Shown piece by piece: positions 2,508 to 37,509 of a stretch of 64,000 nt of DNA. The notes beneath the pieces were generated by a model, which did no database searches, was not told the origin of the DNA, and worked only from the letters and a program-made list of their open reading frames with translations. Each line of letters opens with the position of its first letter. The stretch's first letter is position 1. The translations under genes and the position numbers were made by a program. The stretch comes from Sulfitobacter sp. S223 (lineage in GTDB: Bacteria; Pseudomonadota; Alphaproteobacteria; Rhodobacterales; Rhodobacteraceae), in assembly GCF_025143825.1 (NCBI RefSeq), contig NZ_CP083560.1:2170001-2234000 (forward strand), given 5' to 3'.

Positions 2508-3509
2508 ATGACCATCAAAGTAGGTATTAACGGTTTTGGCCGCATCGGCCGCTGTACCCTGTCCCACATCGCCCAATCTGCCCGCGAAGACATTCAGGTG
2601 ATCAAGCTGAACGCCACTGGCCCGATCGAGACAGCAGCCCACCTGCTTAAATACGATTCAGTACATGGCCGCTTTGGCAACGAGATCACGATCGACGACG
2701 GCTACCTCAATCTGGGACAGAACGACATCGAAGTGATGTCGACCTACAACATGGAAGAGCTGGACTGGTCCGGCTGTGACGTGGTGCTGGAATGCACAGG
2801 CCAGTTCAACGACGGCAACAAGGCCCGCACCCACATCGAACAGGGTGCGAAGAAAGTACTGCTGTCAGCACCTGGCAAAAACGTGGACCGCACGATTGTC
2901 TTCGGTGTGAACGATGACCAGCTTCTGGCATCCGACACCATGATTTCTAACGGGTCTTGCACCACAAACTGCCTCGCGCCGCTGGCACGCGTGATGCATG
3001 ATTCAGTCGGCATCGAAAGCGGCCTGATGACAACAATCCACAGCTATACAGGCGATCAGCCGACATTGGATCGCCGTCACAAAGACCTGTACCGCGCCCG
3101 CGCCGCCGCAATGGCGATCATCCCCACGTCAACTGGTGCCGCAAAAGCATTGGGCGAAGTCATGCCCGAACTTAAAGGCAAGCTTGACGGTACCGCGATG
3201 CGCGTCCCCACACCAAACGTCAGCGCCGTTGACCTGACCTTTACCGCATCCCGTGACGTAACGGTCGAAGAGATCAACCTTGCAGCCAAGAAAGCTGCCG
3301 AAGGCTATATGTCGCGCGTTTTTGCCTATGACCCAGAGCAGAAAGTCTCGATCGACTTTAACCACACCGAGCATAGCTCGATCTTTGCACCAGACCAGAC
3401 CATCGTAGTGGCCGGCCGCACCGTTCGGGTCCTGTCATGGTATGATAACGAATGGGCGTTTTCCGTGCGTATGGCGGATGTTGCCGTTGCCATGGGCCAG
3501 CTTGGCTAG
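2508..3509 (+). CDS. gap: Glyceraldehyde-3-phosphate dehydrogenase, first paralogue (possible NADP type)
   Basis: Phosphorylating GAPDH interconverts glyceraldehyde 3-phosphate and 1,3-bisphosphoglycerate. The 333-residue protein has the Rossmann motif INGFGRIGR, catalytic Cys151 in SNGSCTTN, His178 in HSYTGDQ and the C-terminal YDNEWAFSVRM. Ribosome binding site aaggag precedes the ATG. Oddities: the position normally Asp that binds the NAD ribose is Ala36 (LNATGP), the usual Leu-Pro pair after the S-loop is Arg189-Arg190, and the active-site motif has Gly where most members have Ala. Family knowledge links loss of this Asp to NADP use, so this copy may be the gluconeogenic or NADP-preferring one; that is inference. 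Two LacI-type sites lie upstream. Confidence 0.95.
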   Translation: MTIKVGINGFGRIGRCTLSHIAQSAREDIQVIKLNATGPIETAAHLLKYDSVHGRFGNEITIDDGYLNLGQNDIEVMSTYNMEELDWSGCDVVLECTGQFNDGNKARTHIEQGAKKVLLSAPGKNVDRTIVFGVNDDQLLASDTMISNGSCTTNCLAPLARVMHDSVGIESGLMTTIHSYTGDQPTLDRRHKDLYRARAAAMAIIPTSTGAAKALGEVMPELKGKLDGTAMRVPTPNVSAVDLTFTASRDVTVEEINLAAKKAAEGYMSRVFAYDPEQKVSIDFNHTEHSSIFAPDQTIVVAGRTVRVLSWYDNEWAFSVRMADVAVAMGQLG

Positions 3510-3780: not shown

Positions 3781-3796
3781 ATGTTAGCGCAAACAT
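3781..3796 (+). promoter_or_regulatory. LacI-type operator upstream of the second gap gene
   Basis: The sequence atgttagcgcaaacat matches the palindrome ATGTTAGCGCTAACAT at 15 of 16 positions, the same motif as the pair before the first gap gene. It sits 21 bases before the true start of the second gap gene, which argues against the earlier in-frame ATG at 3781. Confidence 0.65.
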
Positions 3797-3816
3797 GCTT
3801 TCAAACGGGTGGAATT

Positions 3817-4812
3817 ATGACAATCAAACTTGGCATCAACGGATTTGGCCGCATTGGCCGGAACGTGTTGCGCGCGCTTGTCGAAAGTGGTCGCGACGAT
3901 ATCGAAGTGGTGGCGATCAACGATCTGGCTCCGCTTGAGACCAACGTGCATCTATTTGAATACGACAGCGTGCACGGCCGCTTTGGCCACGATGTCACAT
4001 GGGGTGACGGTGTGATGGACATTGGCCGTGGACCGATCCGGGTCACGGCCGAACGGGCGCCAGAGGATTTGCCATGGCAGGACGTGGATATCGCGCTGGA
4101 ATGCACCGGTGTTTTTCGCAGCGTTGAAGCTGCCGGGCGACACCTGAAAAACGGCTCAAAGAAGGTACTGATCTCTGCCCCCGGTAAAGGCGATCTGAAA
4201 ACCATCGTTTACGGGGTCAACCACGACATCCTGACCGCTGGTGACACGGTGGTGTCCAACGCATCATGTACAACGAACTGCCTTGCTCCGCTGGCCCATG
4301 CGCTGCACGGCGCATTCGGGCTGAAACGGGGGTATATGACCACTGTTCACAGCTACACGGGTGACCAGCCCGTGCATGATACCGCGCACAGTGATCTCTA
4401 CCGTGGCCGCGCAGCTGCGATGTCGATGATTCCCACCACAACCGGCGCCGCAGAAGCCGTAGGTCTTGTGCTCCCAGAGCTTGCCGGCCGCATCTCGGGC
4501 ACCGCCATCCGGGTGCCAACACCCAATGTATCCTGTGTCGATCTGGTTGTGGAGCTGGACAAAGACGCGACACCGGACGAGATCAACAGCGCCCTTAGCA
4601 CCGCCGCAGAAGGCATGAACGGTGTGATGGGCGTGACCAGCAGAAAGCTGGTCTCGATTGACTTCAACCATGACGCACGCAGCAGCATCATTGCGCTGGA
4701 CCAGACAGCGGTTCAGCAGGGCAATATGGCGCGCGTTCTGGCGTGGTATGACAATGAATGGGGTTTTTCCAACCGCATGCTTGATACCGCGACAATCATG
4801 TCGCGCGCCTGA
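3817..4812 (+). CDS. gap: Glyceraldehyde-3-phosphate dehydrogenase, second paralogue (NAD-type residue kept)
   Basis: This 331-residue GAPDH has INGFGRIGR at the N-terminus, the catalytic Cys in SNASCTTNC, HSYTGDQ and YDNEWGFSNRM. Unlike the first paralogue it keeps the NAD-determining Asp36 (AINDLAP) and has Thr-Ala at the Leu-Pro position. The start at 3817 (MTIKLGINGF) is chosen over the upstream ATG at 3781 because homology begins there, a ggtgga site precedes it, and an operator covers 3781-3796. Two gap genes with different cofactor-site residues suggest a division between glycolytic and gluconeogenic flow. It is convergent with coaD, with 3 bases between stops. Confidence 0.95.
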   Translation: MTIKLGINGFGRIGRNVLRALVESGRDDIEVVAINDLAPLETNVHLFEYDSVHGRFGHDVTWGDGVMDIGRGPIRVTAERAPEDLPWQDVDIALECTGVFRSVEAAGRHLKNGSKKVLISAPGKGDLKTIVYGVNHDILTAGDTVVSNASCTTNCLAPLAHALHGAFGLKRGYMTTVHSYTGDQPVHDTAHSDLYRGRAAAMSMIPTTTGAAEAVGLVLPELAGRISGTAIRVPTPNVSCVDLVVELDKDATPDEINSALSTAAEGMNGVMGVTSRKLVSIDFNHDARSSIIALDQTAVQQGNMARVLAWYDNEWGFSNRMLDTATIMSRA

Positions 4813-18380: not shown

Positions 18381-19775
18381 CTACATGTGGATGACGCGAC
18401 CGTAGGCGTCCAGCACGGATTCATGCATCATTTCCGACAGGGTCGGATGCGGGAAGACTGTGTTCATCAGGTCTTCTTCCGTGGTTTCCAACTGGCGGCC
18501 CACGACATAGCCCTGGATCAGTTCGGTGACTTCGGCACCCACCATATGCGCGCCCAAAAGCTCACCTGTTTTGGCGTCAAAGACCGTTTTGATCATCCCG
18601 CTTTCTTCGCCCAATGCGATGGCCTTGCCATTGCCGATAAAAGGGAAGCGACCGACTTTGATCTCATAGCCAAGCTCTTTGGCCTTCGCCTCCGTATAGC
18701 CGACGGAAGCCACCTGAGGATGGCAATAGGTACAGCCTGCGATGCTTTCGGGCTTGACCGGATGGGCATGAAGCCCTGCCATCAGTTCCGCAACCATAAC
18801 TCCTTCGTGAGATGCCTTATGGGCCAGCCATGGTGCACCGGCGATGTCACCGATGGCATAAAGACCGTCAACACCTGTGCGGCAGTACTCATCCGTGACG
18901 ACATGGGTGCGATCAATCTTAACGCCAAGCTCTTCCAGACCAAGGTTCTCAACGTTGCCCACGATACCAACAGCGCTGATCACCGTGTCGAATTCTTGTT
19001 TCTCAACCTTTCCGCCGACTTCGATGTGGGCGGTGACTTTATCCTTGGCGCGATCAAGCTTTTTGACCATCGCCTTTTGCATGATCTTCATGCCCTGTTT
19101 TTCGAACGCCTTCTTCGCAAAGGCAGAAATTTCTTCATCCTCGACAGGCAACACACGGTCCATGACTTCGACGACAGTCGTGTCGGCACCTAGTGTATTA
19201 TAGAAGCTGGCGAATTCGATACCGATGGCGCCGGACCCGATGACCAGCAGCTTTTTCGGCATGTGGGGTGGTTGTAGCGCGTGGCGATATGTCCAAACCA
19301 TCTTACCATCTGCTTCAAGGCCCGGCAGTTCGCGCGCCCGCGCCCCGGTGGCCAGAACGATGTTCTTGGCGGTCAGGTTTTCGGTCCCCTTGTCGGTCTT
19401 GACGGTAACCTTGCCCTTGGCAGGCAACGTCGCTTCGCCCATGACCACGTTGATCTTGTTCTTTTTCATCAGGTGACCAATGCCGCCCGAAAGCTGGCCA
19501 GCGACCTTGCGCGAGCGTTTGACCACGGCATCCAGATCATACCCGATCCCGTCGGCCTTAAGCCCGAATTCCTTTGCGCGATGCATCAGATGGAACACTT
19601 CGGAAGATCGCAGCAGCGCCTTGGTCGGGATACAGCCCCAGTTCAGGCAAATACCGCCGAGATTTTCCCGTTCGACGATACAGACCTTCATCCCCAGCTG
19701 TGCGCCGCGAATGGCGGCAACATAACCGCCCGGCCCTGCGCCGATCACGACAAGATCATAGGATGAATCGGCCAT
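18381..19775 (-). CDS. lpdA: Dihydrolipoyl dehydrogenase (E3)
   Basis: E3 reoxidises the dihydrolipoyl groups of the pyruvate and related dehydrogenase complexes and passes electrons to NAD via FAD and a redox disulfide. The 464-residue protein has the FAD motif VIGAGPGGYVAA, the redox-active disulfide in GGICLNWGCIPTKALL, a second dinucleotide motif VIGSGAIGIEFASFY, AIGDIAGAPWLAHKA and the interface motif HPTLSEMMHES. The start MADSSYDLVV has a gaggt site; an ATG four codons upstream does not. A 24-bp palindrome identical in its half-sites to one before pdhA lies 27 bases upstream, so this E3 very probably serves the pdhABC-encoded complex. Confidence 0.97.
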   Translation of the reverse strand: MADSSYDLVVIGAGPGGYVAAIRGAQLGMKVCIVERENLGGICLNWGCIPTKALLRSSEVFHLMHRAKEFGLKADGIGYDLDAVVKRSRKVAGQLSGGIGHLMKKNKINVVMGEATLPAKGKVTVKTDKGTENLTAKNIVLATGARARELPGLEADGKMVWTYRHALQPPHMPKKLLVIGSGAIGIEFASFYNTLGADTTVVEVMDRVLPVEDEEISAFAKKAFEKQGMKIMQKAMVKKLDRAKDKVTAHIEVGGKVEKQEFDTVISAVGIVGNVENLGLEELGVKIDRTHVVTDEYCRTGVDGLYAIGDIAGAPWLAHKASHEGVMVAELMAGLHAHPVKPESIAGCTYCHPQVASVGYTEAKAKELGYEIKVGRFPFIGNGKAIALGEESGMIKTVFDAKTGELLGAHMVGAEVTELIQGYVVGRQLETTEEDLMNTVFPHPTLSEMMHESVLDAYGRVIHM

Positions 19776-19801
19776 TGTGCACCTCATATACGGCTGGAAT
19801 A

Positions 19802-19825
19802 ATATAGTTTACCGCTAAACTATAT
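19802..19825 (-). promoter_or_regulatory. Palindromic operator of lpdA, shared with pdhA
   Basis: Half-sites atatagttta and taaactatat flank a central ccgc. The half-sites are identical to those of the palindrome before pdhA (33707-33730), and flanking bases are also partly conserved. It lies between about 27 and 50 bases upstream of the lpdA start, where it would overlap the promoter. The cognate regulator is not encoded in the window. Confidence 0.8.
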
Positions 19826-33706: not shown

Positions 33707-33730
33707 ATATAGTTTAACGTTAAACTATAT
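33707..33730 (+). promoter_or_regulatory. Perfect 24-bp palindromic operator upstream of pdhA, shared with lpdA
   Basis: Half-sites atatagttta and taaactatat with a central acgt make a fully symmetric 24-bp palindrome. The same half-sites occur before lpdA (19802-19825). It ends 38 bases before the pdhA start. Two strong copies before the genes for E1/E2 and E3 of one complex point to a dedicated regulator of pyruvate dehydrogenase, not encoded here. Confidence 0.85.
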
Positions 33731-33768: not shown

Positions 33769-34779
33769 ATGGCTGCCAAAAAGCCGAGTTCCAAAACGAC
33801 TTCATCCAACGTTTCACCGGAAGAGCTTAAAGCGTATTATCGCGACATGCTTTTGATCCGCCGCTTTGAGGAAAAAGCGGGCCAGCTATACGGCATGGGT
33901 CTGATCGGTGGCTTCTGTCACCTCTATATCGGGCAAGAAGCGGTTGTTGTGGGTCTGGAGGCCGCAGCCAAAGAAGGTGACAAACGCATCACATCCTACC
34001 GCGATCACGGCCATATGCTGGCCTGTGGAATGGACCCCAAAGGCGTCATGGCAGAACTGACCGGCCGCGAAGGCGGGTATTCGAAGGGCAAAGGCGGCTC
34101 CATGCACATGTTCTCGAAAGAGAAACATTTCTATGGCGGTCACGGTATCGTTGCAGCGCAAGTGCCGCTTGGCGCAGGTCTTGCTTTTTCCGACAAATAC
34201 AAAGGCAATGACAATGTCACCTTCACCTACTTTGGTGATGGCGCCGCGAACCAGGGTCAGGTCTATGAAGCCTACAACATGGCCGAAATCTGGAACCTGC
34301 CGGTCGTTTTCGTGATCGAGAACAACCAATACGCCATGGGCACCTCTACCAAACGCTCCACCCACTCCCCTTCTTATTGGGAACGCGGTGCTGCGTATGG
34401 CATCAAGGGTGAAGAAGTGGACGGTATGGATGTACTGGCGGTCAAAGAAGCCGGTGAGAAGGCTGTTGAAGTCTGCCGCGCAGGCAAAGGCCCCTATATC
34501 CTTGAGATCAAGACATACCGCTACCGCGGCCACTCAATGTCCGATCCGGCCAAATACCGCACCCGTGAAGAAGTTCAAAAGATGCGCGATGAACGTGATC
34601 CGATTGAAGCGGTGCGCAGCATGCTGCTGACAGGCAAACACGCCAGCGAGGATGACCTCAAAGCGATCGACAAAGAAATCAAAGCCATCGTGAACGAAAG
34701 TGCCGAGTTCGCCAAGGACAGCCCGGAGCCGCATCTTGATGAGCTTTGGACAGATATTTACGCAGAGCTGGAGGCTTAA
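33769..34779 (+). CDS. pdhA: Pyruvate dehydrogenase E1 component, alpha subunit
   Basis: E1 decarboxylates pyruvate with thiamine diphosphate and acetylates the lipoyl groups of E2. The 336-residue alpha subunit shows YRDHGHMLACGMDPKGVMAE, GKGGSMHMFS and the thiamine-diphosphate motif GDGAANQGQVYEAYNMAEIW ending in NN (IENNQYAMGTS), plus the phosphorylation-loop-like YRYRGHSMSDPAKYRTREE. A gggagg site precedes the ATG. It starts the pdhABC operon, with 3 bases to pdhB, under the 24-bp palindromic operator. Confidence 0.97.
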   Translation: MAAKKPSSKTTSSNVSPEELKAYYRDMLLIRRFEEKAGQLYGMGLIGGFCHLYIGQEAVVVGLEAAAKEGDKRITSYRDHGHMLACGMDPKGVMAELTGREGGYSKGKGGSMHMFSKEKHFYGGHGIVAAQVPLGAGLAFSDKYKGNDNVTFTYFGDGAANQGQVYEAYNMAEIWNLPVVFVIENNQYAMGTSTKRSTHSPSYWERGAAYGIKGEEVDGMDVLAVKEAGEKAVEVCRAGKGPYILEIKTYRYRGHSMSDPAKYRTREEVQKMRDERDPIEAVRSMLLTGKHASEDDLKAIDKEIKAIVNESAEFAKDSPEPHLDELWTDIYAELEA

Positions 34780-34782
34780 CCC

Positions 34783-36162
34783 ATGGCAACCGAAATTCTT
34801 ATGCCCGCCCTCAGCCCTACAATGGAAGAAGGCACATTGGCCAAATGGATGGTGAAGGAAGGCGATACCGTGTCGTCCGGTGACATCATGGCCGAAATCG
34901 AAACCGACAAGGCCACGATGGAATTCGAGGCCGTGGACGAAGGTGTTATCGGCAAGATCCTGATCGAAGAAGGTACCGAAGGCGTGAAGGTCAACACCGC
35001 CATCGCGATCCTTCTGGAAGAAGGCGAAGACGCCTCTGCCATGGACAATGCCAAATCCGAGCCTGCCAGCGCGCCCGTCCCTGCTGACAAAGAACAGTCG
35101 TCAGAGACAGCCCCCGCAGCCGCCATGTCCCACCCCGAGCCCGAGGTGGACACCTCACCTGACTGGCCCGAAGGCACCACGCTTAAGAAGCAGACAGTGC
35201 GCGAAGCCTTGCGGGACGGCATGGCTGAAGAAATGCGCCGCGACGAGACCGTTTTCGTCATGGGCGAAGAAGTGGCCGAATATCAGGGCGCTTATAAAAT
35301 CACCCAAGGGATGCTGGATGAATTCGGCTCCAAGCGGGTGATTGATACGCCTATCACGGAACATGGTTTTGCCGGTATCGGTGTCGGCGCTGCCTTTGGC
35401 GGCCTTAAGCCCATCGTCGAATTTATGACCTTCAACTTCGCCATGCAGGCGATGGACCAGATCATCAACTCCGCGGCCAAAACGCTGTACATGTCCGGCG
35501 GTCAGATGGGCGCGCCTATGGTGTTCCGTGGACCAAACGGTGCCGCAGCGCGCGTGGGTGCCCAGCACTCTCAGGACTATGCCGCATGGTTTATGCAGGT
35601 TCCCGGCCTCAAGGTTGCGATGCCCTATGCAGCGTCCGACTATAAGGGCCTGATGAAGACAGCCATTCGCGATCCCAACCCGGTGATCTTCCTTGAGAAT
35701 GAGATCCTTTACGGCCGCACCTTCGATGTACCCGATCTGGATGATTACACCGTGCCTTTCGGCAAAGCCCGCATCTGGCGCGAAGGCGACGATGTCACCA
35801 TCGTGAGCTTTGGCATCGGCATGACCTACGCACTGGAAGCCGCCGACAAATTGGCCGAAGAGGGCATCATGGCCGAGGTCATCGATCTGCGCACGCTGCG
35901 CCCGATGGATACGCCCGCGATCATCAAATCCGTGATGAAGACCAATCGTCTGGTCACGGTTGAAGAAGGCTGGCCGCAAGGTTCTGTCGGGAACTACATC
36001 AGCTCAGTCGTGATGCAGGAGGCGTTTGATTATCTGGACGCCCCGGTGATCAACTGCACAGGCAAGGATGTCCCGATGCCCTATGCGGCGAACCTTGAAA
36101 AACACGCGCTTGTCACCACCGCCGAGGTGATTGAAGCTGTGAAAAAAGTAACATACAAATAA
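34783..36162 (+). CDS. pdhB: Pyruvate dehydrogenase E1 component, beta subunit with N-terminal lipoyl domain
   Basis: The 459-residue protein begins with a lipoyl domain (residues about 1-80, lipoyl-lysine Lys43 in [10 protein letters not shown]), then an Ala/Pro-rich linker (about 85-130), then the E1 beta fold: [60 protein letters not shown] and [20 protein letters not shown] lipoyl domain on E1 beta is a known alphaproteobacterial feature. Its lipoyl domain is almost the same protein as that of PdhC, though the codons differ widely. It lies between pdhA and pdhC with gaps of 3 and 12 bases. Confidence 0.97.
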
Positions 36163-36174
36163 GGAGCGGACACG

Positions 36175-37509
36175 ATGCCAACAGAAATCCTCATGCCCGC
36201 CCTCTCACCCACCATGGAAGAAGGCACGCTGGCCAAGTGGCTCGTCAAAGAAGGCGACACAGTCTCCTCCGGTGACGTGATGTGCGAGATCGAAACAGAC
36301 AAAGCGACGATGGAATTCGAAGCCGTCGACGAAGGCGTGATCGGTAAGATCCTGATCGAAGAAGGCACAGAAGGTGTGAAGGTTAATACCGCCATCGCCG
36401 TGCTGCTCGAAGAAGGTGAAAGCGCTGATGACATCACAGATACGCCCGCACCAAAGGCGGACACATCAAGCAATGCCGCGCCAGCCGAAGCCTCTGACGC
36501 AACAGCACCGGCCAAAGGCCATGGTCGCGGCGAAACCGATGCCACAAAAGCCCCCGCCGCTGGCGCAAAATCAGATGGCAGTCGCATCTTCGCCTCTCCT
36601 CTTGCGCGCCGTATTGCTGCGCAAAAGGGTCTGGATTTGGCAGATATCAAAGGCTCCGGCCCCCACGGACGGATTGTAAAAGCAGACGTCGAAGGCCTGT
36701 CAAAAACAGACGCTCCAAAGGCGGCAGCACCTTCCACACCGGACAAAGCAGCTGCACCTGCGGCATCTATGCCAACGGGCCCCTCCAGCGATGCTATCGC
36801 CAAAATGTACGAAGGCCGCGAGTACGAGGAAATCACCCTCAACGGTATGCGCAAGACAATTGCAGCACGCCTGACCGAGGCAAAGCAAACAGTGCCGCAT
36901 TTCTATCTGCGCCGCGATATCCAGCTTGATGCGCTAATGGCCTTCCGCGCCCAACTCAACAAACAGCTTGAACCGCGTGGCGTTAAGCTATCGGTCAATG
37001 ACTTCATCATCAAAGCCTGCGCCCTTGCGCTGCAACAGGTACCAGACGCCAACGCCGTCTGGGCCGGTGACAAAGTATTCAAACTCAAGCCATCCGATGT
37101 TGCCGTTGCCGTCGCGATTGAGGGCGGGCTGTTCACCCCTGTTCTCAAAGACGCCGAGATGAAATCCCTGTCAGCGCTCAGCGCAGAGATGAAAGACCTT
37201 GCAGGACGTGCACGTGATCGCAAGCTTGCGCCGCATGAATATCAGGGCGGCAGCTTTGCCATCTCTAATCTGGGTATGTTCGGCATCGATAACTTCGACG
37301 CGGTTATCAACCCGCCCCACGGTGCTATTCTTGCTGTGGGCGCTGGCGTGAAAAAGCCAGTTGTTGGCGCTGACGGGGAGCTTGGAATCGCAACAGTGAT
37401 GTCCGTCACCCTGTCCGTCGATCACCGGGTTATTGATGGCGCTCTGGGCGCCCAGTTGCTCGCAGCCATCAAAGAAAATCTTGAAGCGCCCATGACGATG
37501 CTCGCCTGA
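36175..37509 (+). CDS. pdhC: Dihydrolipoamide acetyltransferase (E2) of pyruvate dehydrogenase
   Basis: E2 carries the acetyl group on lipoyl arms and transfers it to CoA; it forms the core of the complex. The 444-residue protein has an N-terminal lipoyl domain (1-80, Lys43), a linker, the peripheral-subunit-binding domain (about 140-175, [20 protein letters not shown] and [11 protein letters not shown]), a second linker and the acyltransferase domain with the catalytic motif [14 protein letters not shown] near the C-terminus. An aaggag site lies 7 bases before the ATG. A hairpin and a terminator follow. With lpdA (E3) under the same operator, all subunits of the complex are accounted for. 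Confidence 0.97.

Follow-up and report, generated by a model that had tools for sequence, protein, structure and literature searches.

A perfect 24-bp palindrome upstream of the pyruvate dehydrogenase (PDH) genes of Sulfitobacter sp. S223 very probably serves as the binding site of a single MarR-family repressor, common to the PDH and malic enzyme genes. In the mechanism that we propose, a MarR protein encoded in a comF-linked locus would bind, as a dimer, to sites of the form TRGTTYA-N4-TRAACYA, which would lie across the core promoters of pdhABC, lpdA and maeB or immediately after them. The bound protein would, most likely, repress these genes until a metabolite of the pyruvate/acetyl-CoA node released it, and the malate → pyruvate → acetyl-CoA module would thereby be switched as one unit. 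Taken as a whole, from predicted MarR operator through dimer binding to repression of all three promoters and release by a metabolite, this account appears to us highly probable.

The window, which is the whole 64-kb stretch of S223 DNA that was analysed, contains the half-sites ATATAGTTTA-NNNN-TAAACTATAT upstream of both pdhA and lpdA. The pdhABC site (33707–33730, no strand assigned) reads ATATAGTTTAACGTTAAACTATAT and is palindromic over its full 24 bp; its 18-bp core ends 41 bp 5′ of the pdhA start codon. The lpdA site (19802–19825, likewise without strand) reads ATATAGTTTACCGCTAAACTATAT, with 10-bp half-sites identical to those of the pdhA site and a different 4-bp centre, and its core ends 17 bp 5′ of the lpdA start codon. 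The initial annotation had described both sites in these terms, and the sequence confirmed it. It had also placed the E1/E2 and E3 genes on opposite strands, and the domain matches agree with these identities and strands: pdhA, E1 alpha (33769–34779, +; TIGR03182, E 8e-155), pdhB, E1 beta with an N-terminal lipoyl domain (34783–36162, +; PRK11892, E 1e-251), pdhC, dihydrolipoamide acetyltransferase E2 (36175–37509, +; TIGR01349, E 6e-161), and lpdA, dihydrolipoyl dehydrogenase E3 (18381–19787, −; TIGR01350, E 6e-170). No regulator gene was seen among the genes between lpdA and pdhA.

With up to three mismatches allowed, the pdhA and lpdA sites were the only matches in the window, and dinucleotide shuffles produced none (0/100). 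Across the 4.03-Mb genome the core TAGTTTANNNNTAAACTA occurred exactly three times, and a scan of the whole genome found no copy with one or two mismatches. The third copy lies upstream of maeB, 23 bp from the start codon of this gene for a 757-aa NADP-malic enzyme. The half-site scan that had been suggested at the outset thus returned core copies at pyruvate-node genes only, rather than many random copies. The proposed regulon of pdhABC and lpdA was borne out in both members, but the pair was incomplete, as maeB is also included.

A comparison across relatives had likewise been suggested, and the motif was found to be kept at the same promoters in the genus and in much of the Rhodobacteraceae, a family prominent among marine bacteria. 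All 23 same-genus genomes carried two to four copies, mostly three, and at the same-genus loci fetched the sites lay upstream of pdhA, lpdA or maeB with a single exception (L029, genome G006). There, maeB is gone from the acs-cdd interval, a gene for a MipA-like outer membrane protein stands in its place, and the operator is left as an orphan. Strict sites were present in 74 of 120 Rhodobacteraceae genomes, usually one to three in each and again mostly upstream of pdhA, lpdA or maeB, while the reversed-motif control gave one match each in 6 of the 120. Outside the family, strict sites were rare. In one genome (G157, L057, 1501–1518), an operator precedes aceE, which encodes a homodimeric PDH E1 unrelated to the pdhA type. 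This suggests that the regulon may follow function when the PDH enzyme is replaced. In another (G143, L058, 1501–1518), the site TGGTTTAGCGCTAAACCA has a lactate-dehydrogenase-like gene on one side and pyruvate carboxylase on the other; it was seen in this one genome and may be due to chance. Single-genome sites at threonine-dehydratase-like and alpha-galactosidase genes (L037, L060) were set aside as within the chance level given by the six control matches in 120 genomes.

A perfect inverted repeat near start codons could also act at the RNA level, as a hairpin of the 5′ leader, rather than serve as a DNA operator. We regard the chance of this as next to negligible. Base frequencies showed the half-site sequence to be fixed, with no compensating variation, and the palindrome is linked to the gene of a DNA-binding protein and, in outgroups, is found as tandem copies within promoters.

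The few outgroup matches led to the candidate factor. Six outgroup genomes, spread over four other families, carry the motif in tandem, with copies ~21–24 bp apart, upstream of an operon formed by the gene for an Acg-like oxidoreductase and marR. The oxidoreductase has a signal-like N-terminus and gave no Pfam match (tested on the outgroup relative in L079). A profile of the outgroup MarRs, searched against the S223 genome, found one strong homologue (E 9e-42, the next at 6e-6), a 144-aa MarR protein at G000:C1:81738-82172, outside the window. An apparent TAG stop inside this protein was merely the homology match extending past the gene end. The order of its locus is comF-grxC-nitrilase-marR, opposite ubiG, and its recognition helix reads VTRGAMTNTL, compared with VTKGAMTNTL in the outgroup MarRs. 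The comF-linked MarRs form a single clade (support 100/98) within the GAMTNT group, and the closest regulators were found in Sulfitobacter, Roseobacter, Ruegeria, Phaeobacter and others.

Domain and structure predictions agree with this assignment. The candidate scored above the Pfam cut-offs for PF12802 (33.1 bits, cut-off 27) and PF01047 (29.0, cut-off 24.6), matching MarR models and no GntR models. In the AlphaFold2 model (pLDDT 92.9), N- and C-terminal dimerisation helices surround a winged helix, as in the MarR fold, with the recognition helix at residues 66–78 and the wing strands at 82–86 and 94–98. The top Foldseek matches of this model were MarR-family proteins, several of them complexed with operator DNA. 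The sequence holds no cysteine, so a thiol switch is not expected.

Presence of the sites followed presence of the marR gene, and the two were lost together. The pdhA site was found in 27 of 29 MarR-positive family genomes and in none of the seven complete MarR-negative genomes with a pdhA upstream region (Fisher p 4e-6, relatedness ignored). For the lpdA site the counts were 17/20 and, among complete MarR-negative genomes, 0/6 (p 4e-4, relatedness ignored), and for the maeB site 15/20 and 0/10 (p 1e-4, relatedness again ignored); in all three comparisons, matches to the profile used (A1) comprise the comF-linked protein and an acg-linked paralogue, and some of the genomes scored as positive may carry only the paralogue, as G047 apparently does. 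The MarR-positive genomes that seemed motif-free had slightly degenerate sites upstream of pdhA. Among the MarR-positive genomes, maeB had no clear site in five of 20 and lpdA had none in three of 20. In four incomplete genomes (74–83%), the pdhA site was present and MarR was not found, which is expected if the marR gene lies in the missing part. The MarR-less genomes were scattered over the MaeB tree, with seven changes on the best tree, six to seven in bootstraps and at least two forced.

Several MarR-negative genomes retain the comF-grxC-nitrilase neighbours, with only marR missing. These can be regarded as natural deletions, in which the operators too are gone. One genome that has lost marR (G109, L251) carries TTGCTTAACGCTATTCTC at the usual place, 46 bp upstream of maeB, and this may be a decayed operator copy. 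The initial annotation had implied one regulon under a dedicated transcription factor, which is supported by the three genome-wide copies, by conservation across the family and by this co-occurrence with one MarR gene.

The acg-linked MarR paralogues of Rhodobacteraceae have the helix VPKTTMTHTL or a similar one, and several of their promoters carry tandem TAGTACGATATCGTACTA-type sites (L088, L096, L098, L100 and others). In these operators the 18-bp frame and the outer bases, TAGT...ACTA, are unchanged and the inner bases differ. It would seem that, once duplication had occurred, the helix and its operator evolved in step. In G047 (82% complete), the acg-linked MarR has the helix VTKGAMTNTV and TTGGTTTAGCGTTCAACCAA sites; the pdhA site is absent there, as is, so far as seen, the comF-linked protein. 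The palindromes, as predicted operators, thus covary in sequence comparison with both the presence of the marR gene and its helix.

Co-occurrence might be indirect, with an unrelated transcription factor binding the sites. The regulators profiled were a subset of all, and marR adjoins no target gene in Rhodobacteraceae. We consider such a factor highly improbable, however, as the outgroup operons and the covariation of helix and operator are specific to this MarR group. Autoregulation or a divergent target gene is common, but not universal, in the MarR family. The initial annotation had looked towards a self-regulated factor gene; within Rhodobacteraceae this was not borne out, with no operator within or near marR at the loci examined, whereas in the outgroups marR is presumably autoregulated, because a site precedes its operon.

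From these comparisons we infer direct binding by MarR, and repression, the latter because both kinds of operator position are those at which a bound dimer would block RNA polymerase. The S223 operators end 17–41 bp 5′ of the start codons, over the presumed −10/start region, and outgroup operator 1 lies directly 3′ of TTGACA, taking up the whole spacer before the −10 element (promoter elements were identified by eye). Some MarR proteins act as activators, and the sign of regulation cannot be read from sequence alone. MarR could then be the correct factor and act on pdhABC, lpdA and maeB as an activator or dual regulator. This is unlikely, as the operators over the presumed −10/start region in S223, and between TTGACA and −10 in the outgroups, occupy repressor positions. 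For repression by MarR, an effector that reports pyruvate or acetyl-CoA is a guess, and a natural one because the targets form the path from malate through pyruvate to acetyl-CoA.

As a one-component regulator of the PDH E1/E2 and E3 genes, the candidate resembles PdhR of E. coli and other gammaproteobacteria, but PdhR belongs to the GntR family and the candidate to MarR. The operators also differ, being of the ATTGGT/ACCAAT type for PdhR and TRGTTTA-N4-TAAACYA here; the claim that the motif is unlike the E. coli site holds for the operator TAGTTTANNNNTAAACTA. Unlike the PdhR regulon, this one is joined by malic enzyme, and the candidate would be a functional analogue of PdhR, not a member. 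With E. coli MarR, HpaR, MftR and ST1710 it shares the winged-helix fold and a Pfam MarR score above gathering; identity to solved members is ~20–26%, and its targets lie in central carbon metabolism. The acg-linked alphaproteobacterial paralogues belong to the same subfamily, with the same 18-bp operator frame and, in the outgroup versions, the same motif, but differ in sharing an operon with their presumed target and, in Rhodobacteraceae, in helix and inner operator bases. The MarR group is a natural case of a regulator gaining new targets, in which the operator bases of paralogues change with the recognition helix. Two further candidates were rejected. The operator of Paenibacillus XylR, which surfaced in a literature search with the half-sites, differs from this motif in spacing. 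Regulators of the ScfR group (RamB, PccR, MccR) bind two near-identical boxes, which for RamB are set apart by an 18-bp spacer (PMC10370305), whereas the Rhodobacteraceae sites are single palindromes.

The small conserved regulon is real and the candidate factor well supported; the assignment is new, the kind of system ordinary. It offers a single gene with three exact operators, and a clean prediction open to testing, and bears on PDH control in alphaproteobacteria, above all roseobacters, where any existing credit goes to a general LacI-type regulator. The literature search found no Rhodobacterales PDH regulator, or link between MarR and PDH, beyond a prediction for RSP_1663. In a 2015 network model of Rhodobacter sphaeroides, malic enzyme, the PDH genes and RSP_2968 were assigned to RSP_1663, with an inverted repeat, [A/G/T]GTT-N6-8-AAC[A/C/T], in two spacer classes as its motif (PMC4344238). 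The factor at the GTT-N8-AAC sites could accordingly be this LacI protein, CceR, also studied in Paracoccus. The modelled targets are the same and GTT-N8-AAC fits the repeat (PMC4344238), the site centre prefers RCGY, as in LacI operators, and MaeB falls in a Paracoccus cceR mutant (PMC11323563).

We nevertheless consider CceR improbable as the factor at the N8 sites. In S223, GTT-N6-AAC sites lie upstream of edd and gap and N8 sites solely at pdh, lpd and mae, so each spacer length goes with its own set of genes. The N6 operator of CceR type, which glycolytic and gluconeogenic genes share, was absent at pdh, lpd and mae. The N6 form gave two matches in S223 against two in the control, a count that is not significant on its own. 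The N8 sites, moreover, vanish together with marR and precede marR operons in outgroups, and in the paralogues a different MarR helix goes with a different operator. Most simply, the N6 and N8 classes would be separate regulons, of CceR and of MarR respectively, with a share for CceR in the pdh, lpd and mae promoters besides MarR being possible. We lean, with modest confidence, towards a wider account in which a MarR that senses a pyruvate/acetyl-CoA metabolite would run PDH, E3 and malic enzyme as a unit, would descend from a regulator of the Acg-like oxidoreductase, and would take over part of the regulon credited to CceR. The edd gene (L321) is preceded by a LacI/CceR-type site like those at gap. 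At gap, two GTTA-N-CG-N-TAAC-like repeats of this type, one at 2389–2402 of the window and the other ~20 bp later, lie upstream of the GAPDH gene that starts at 2508, and two different gap (GAPDH) genes follow in succession (2508–3509 and 3781–4812).
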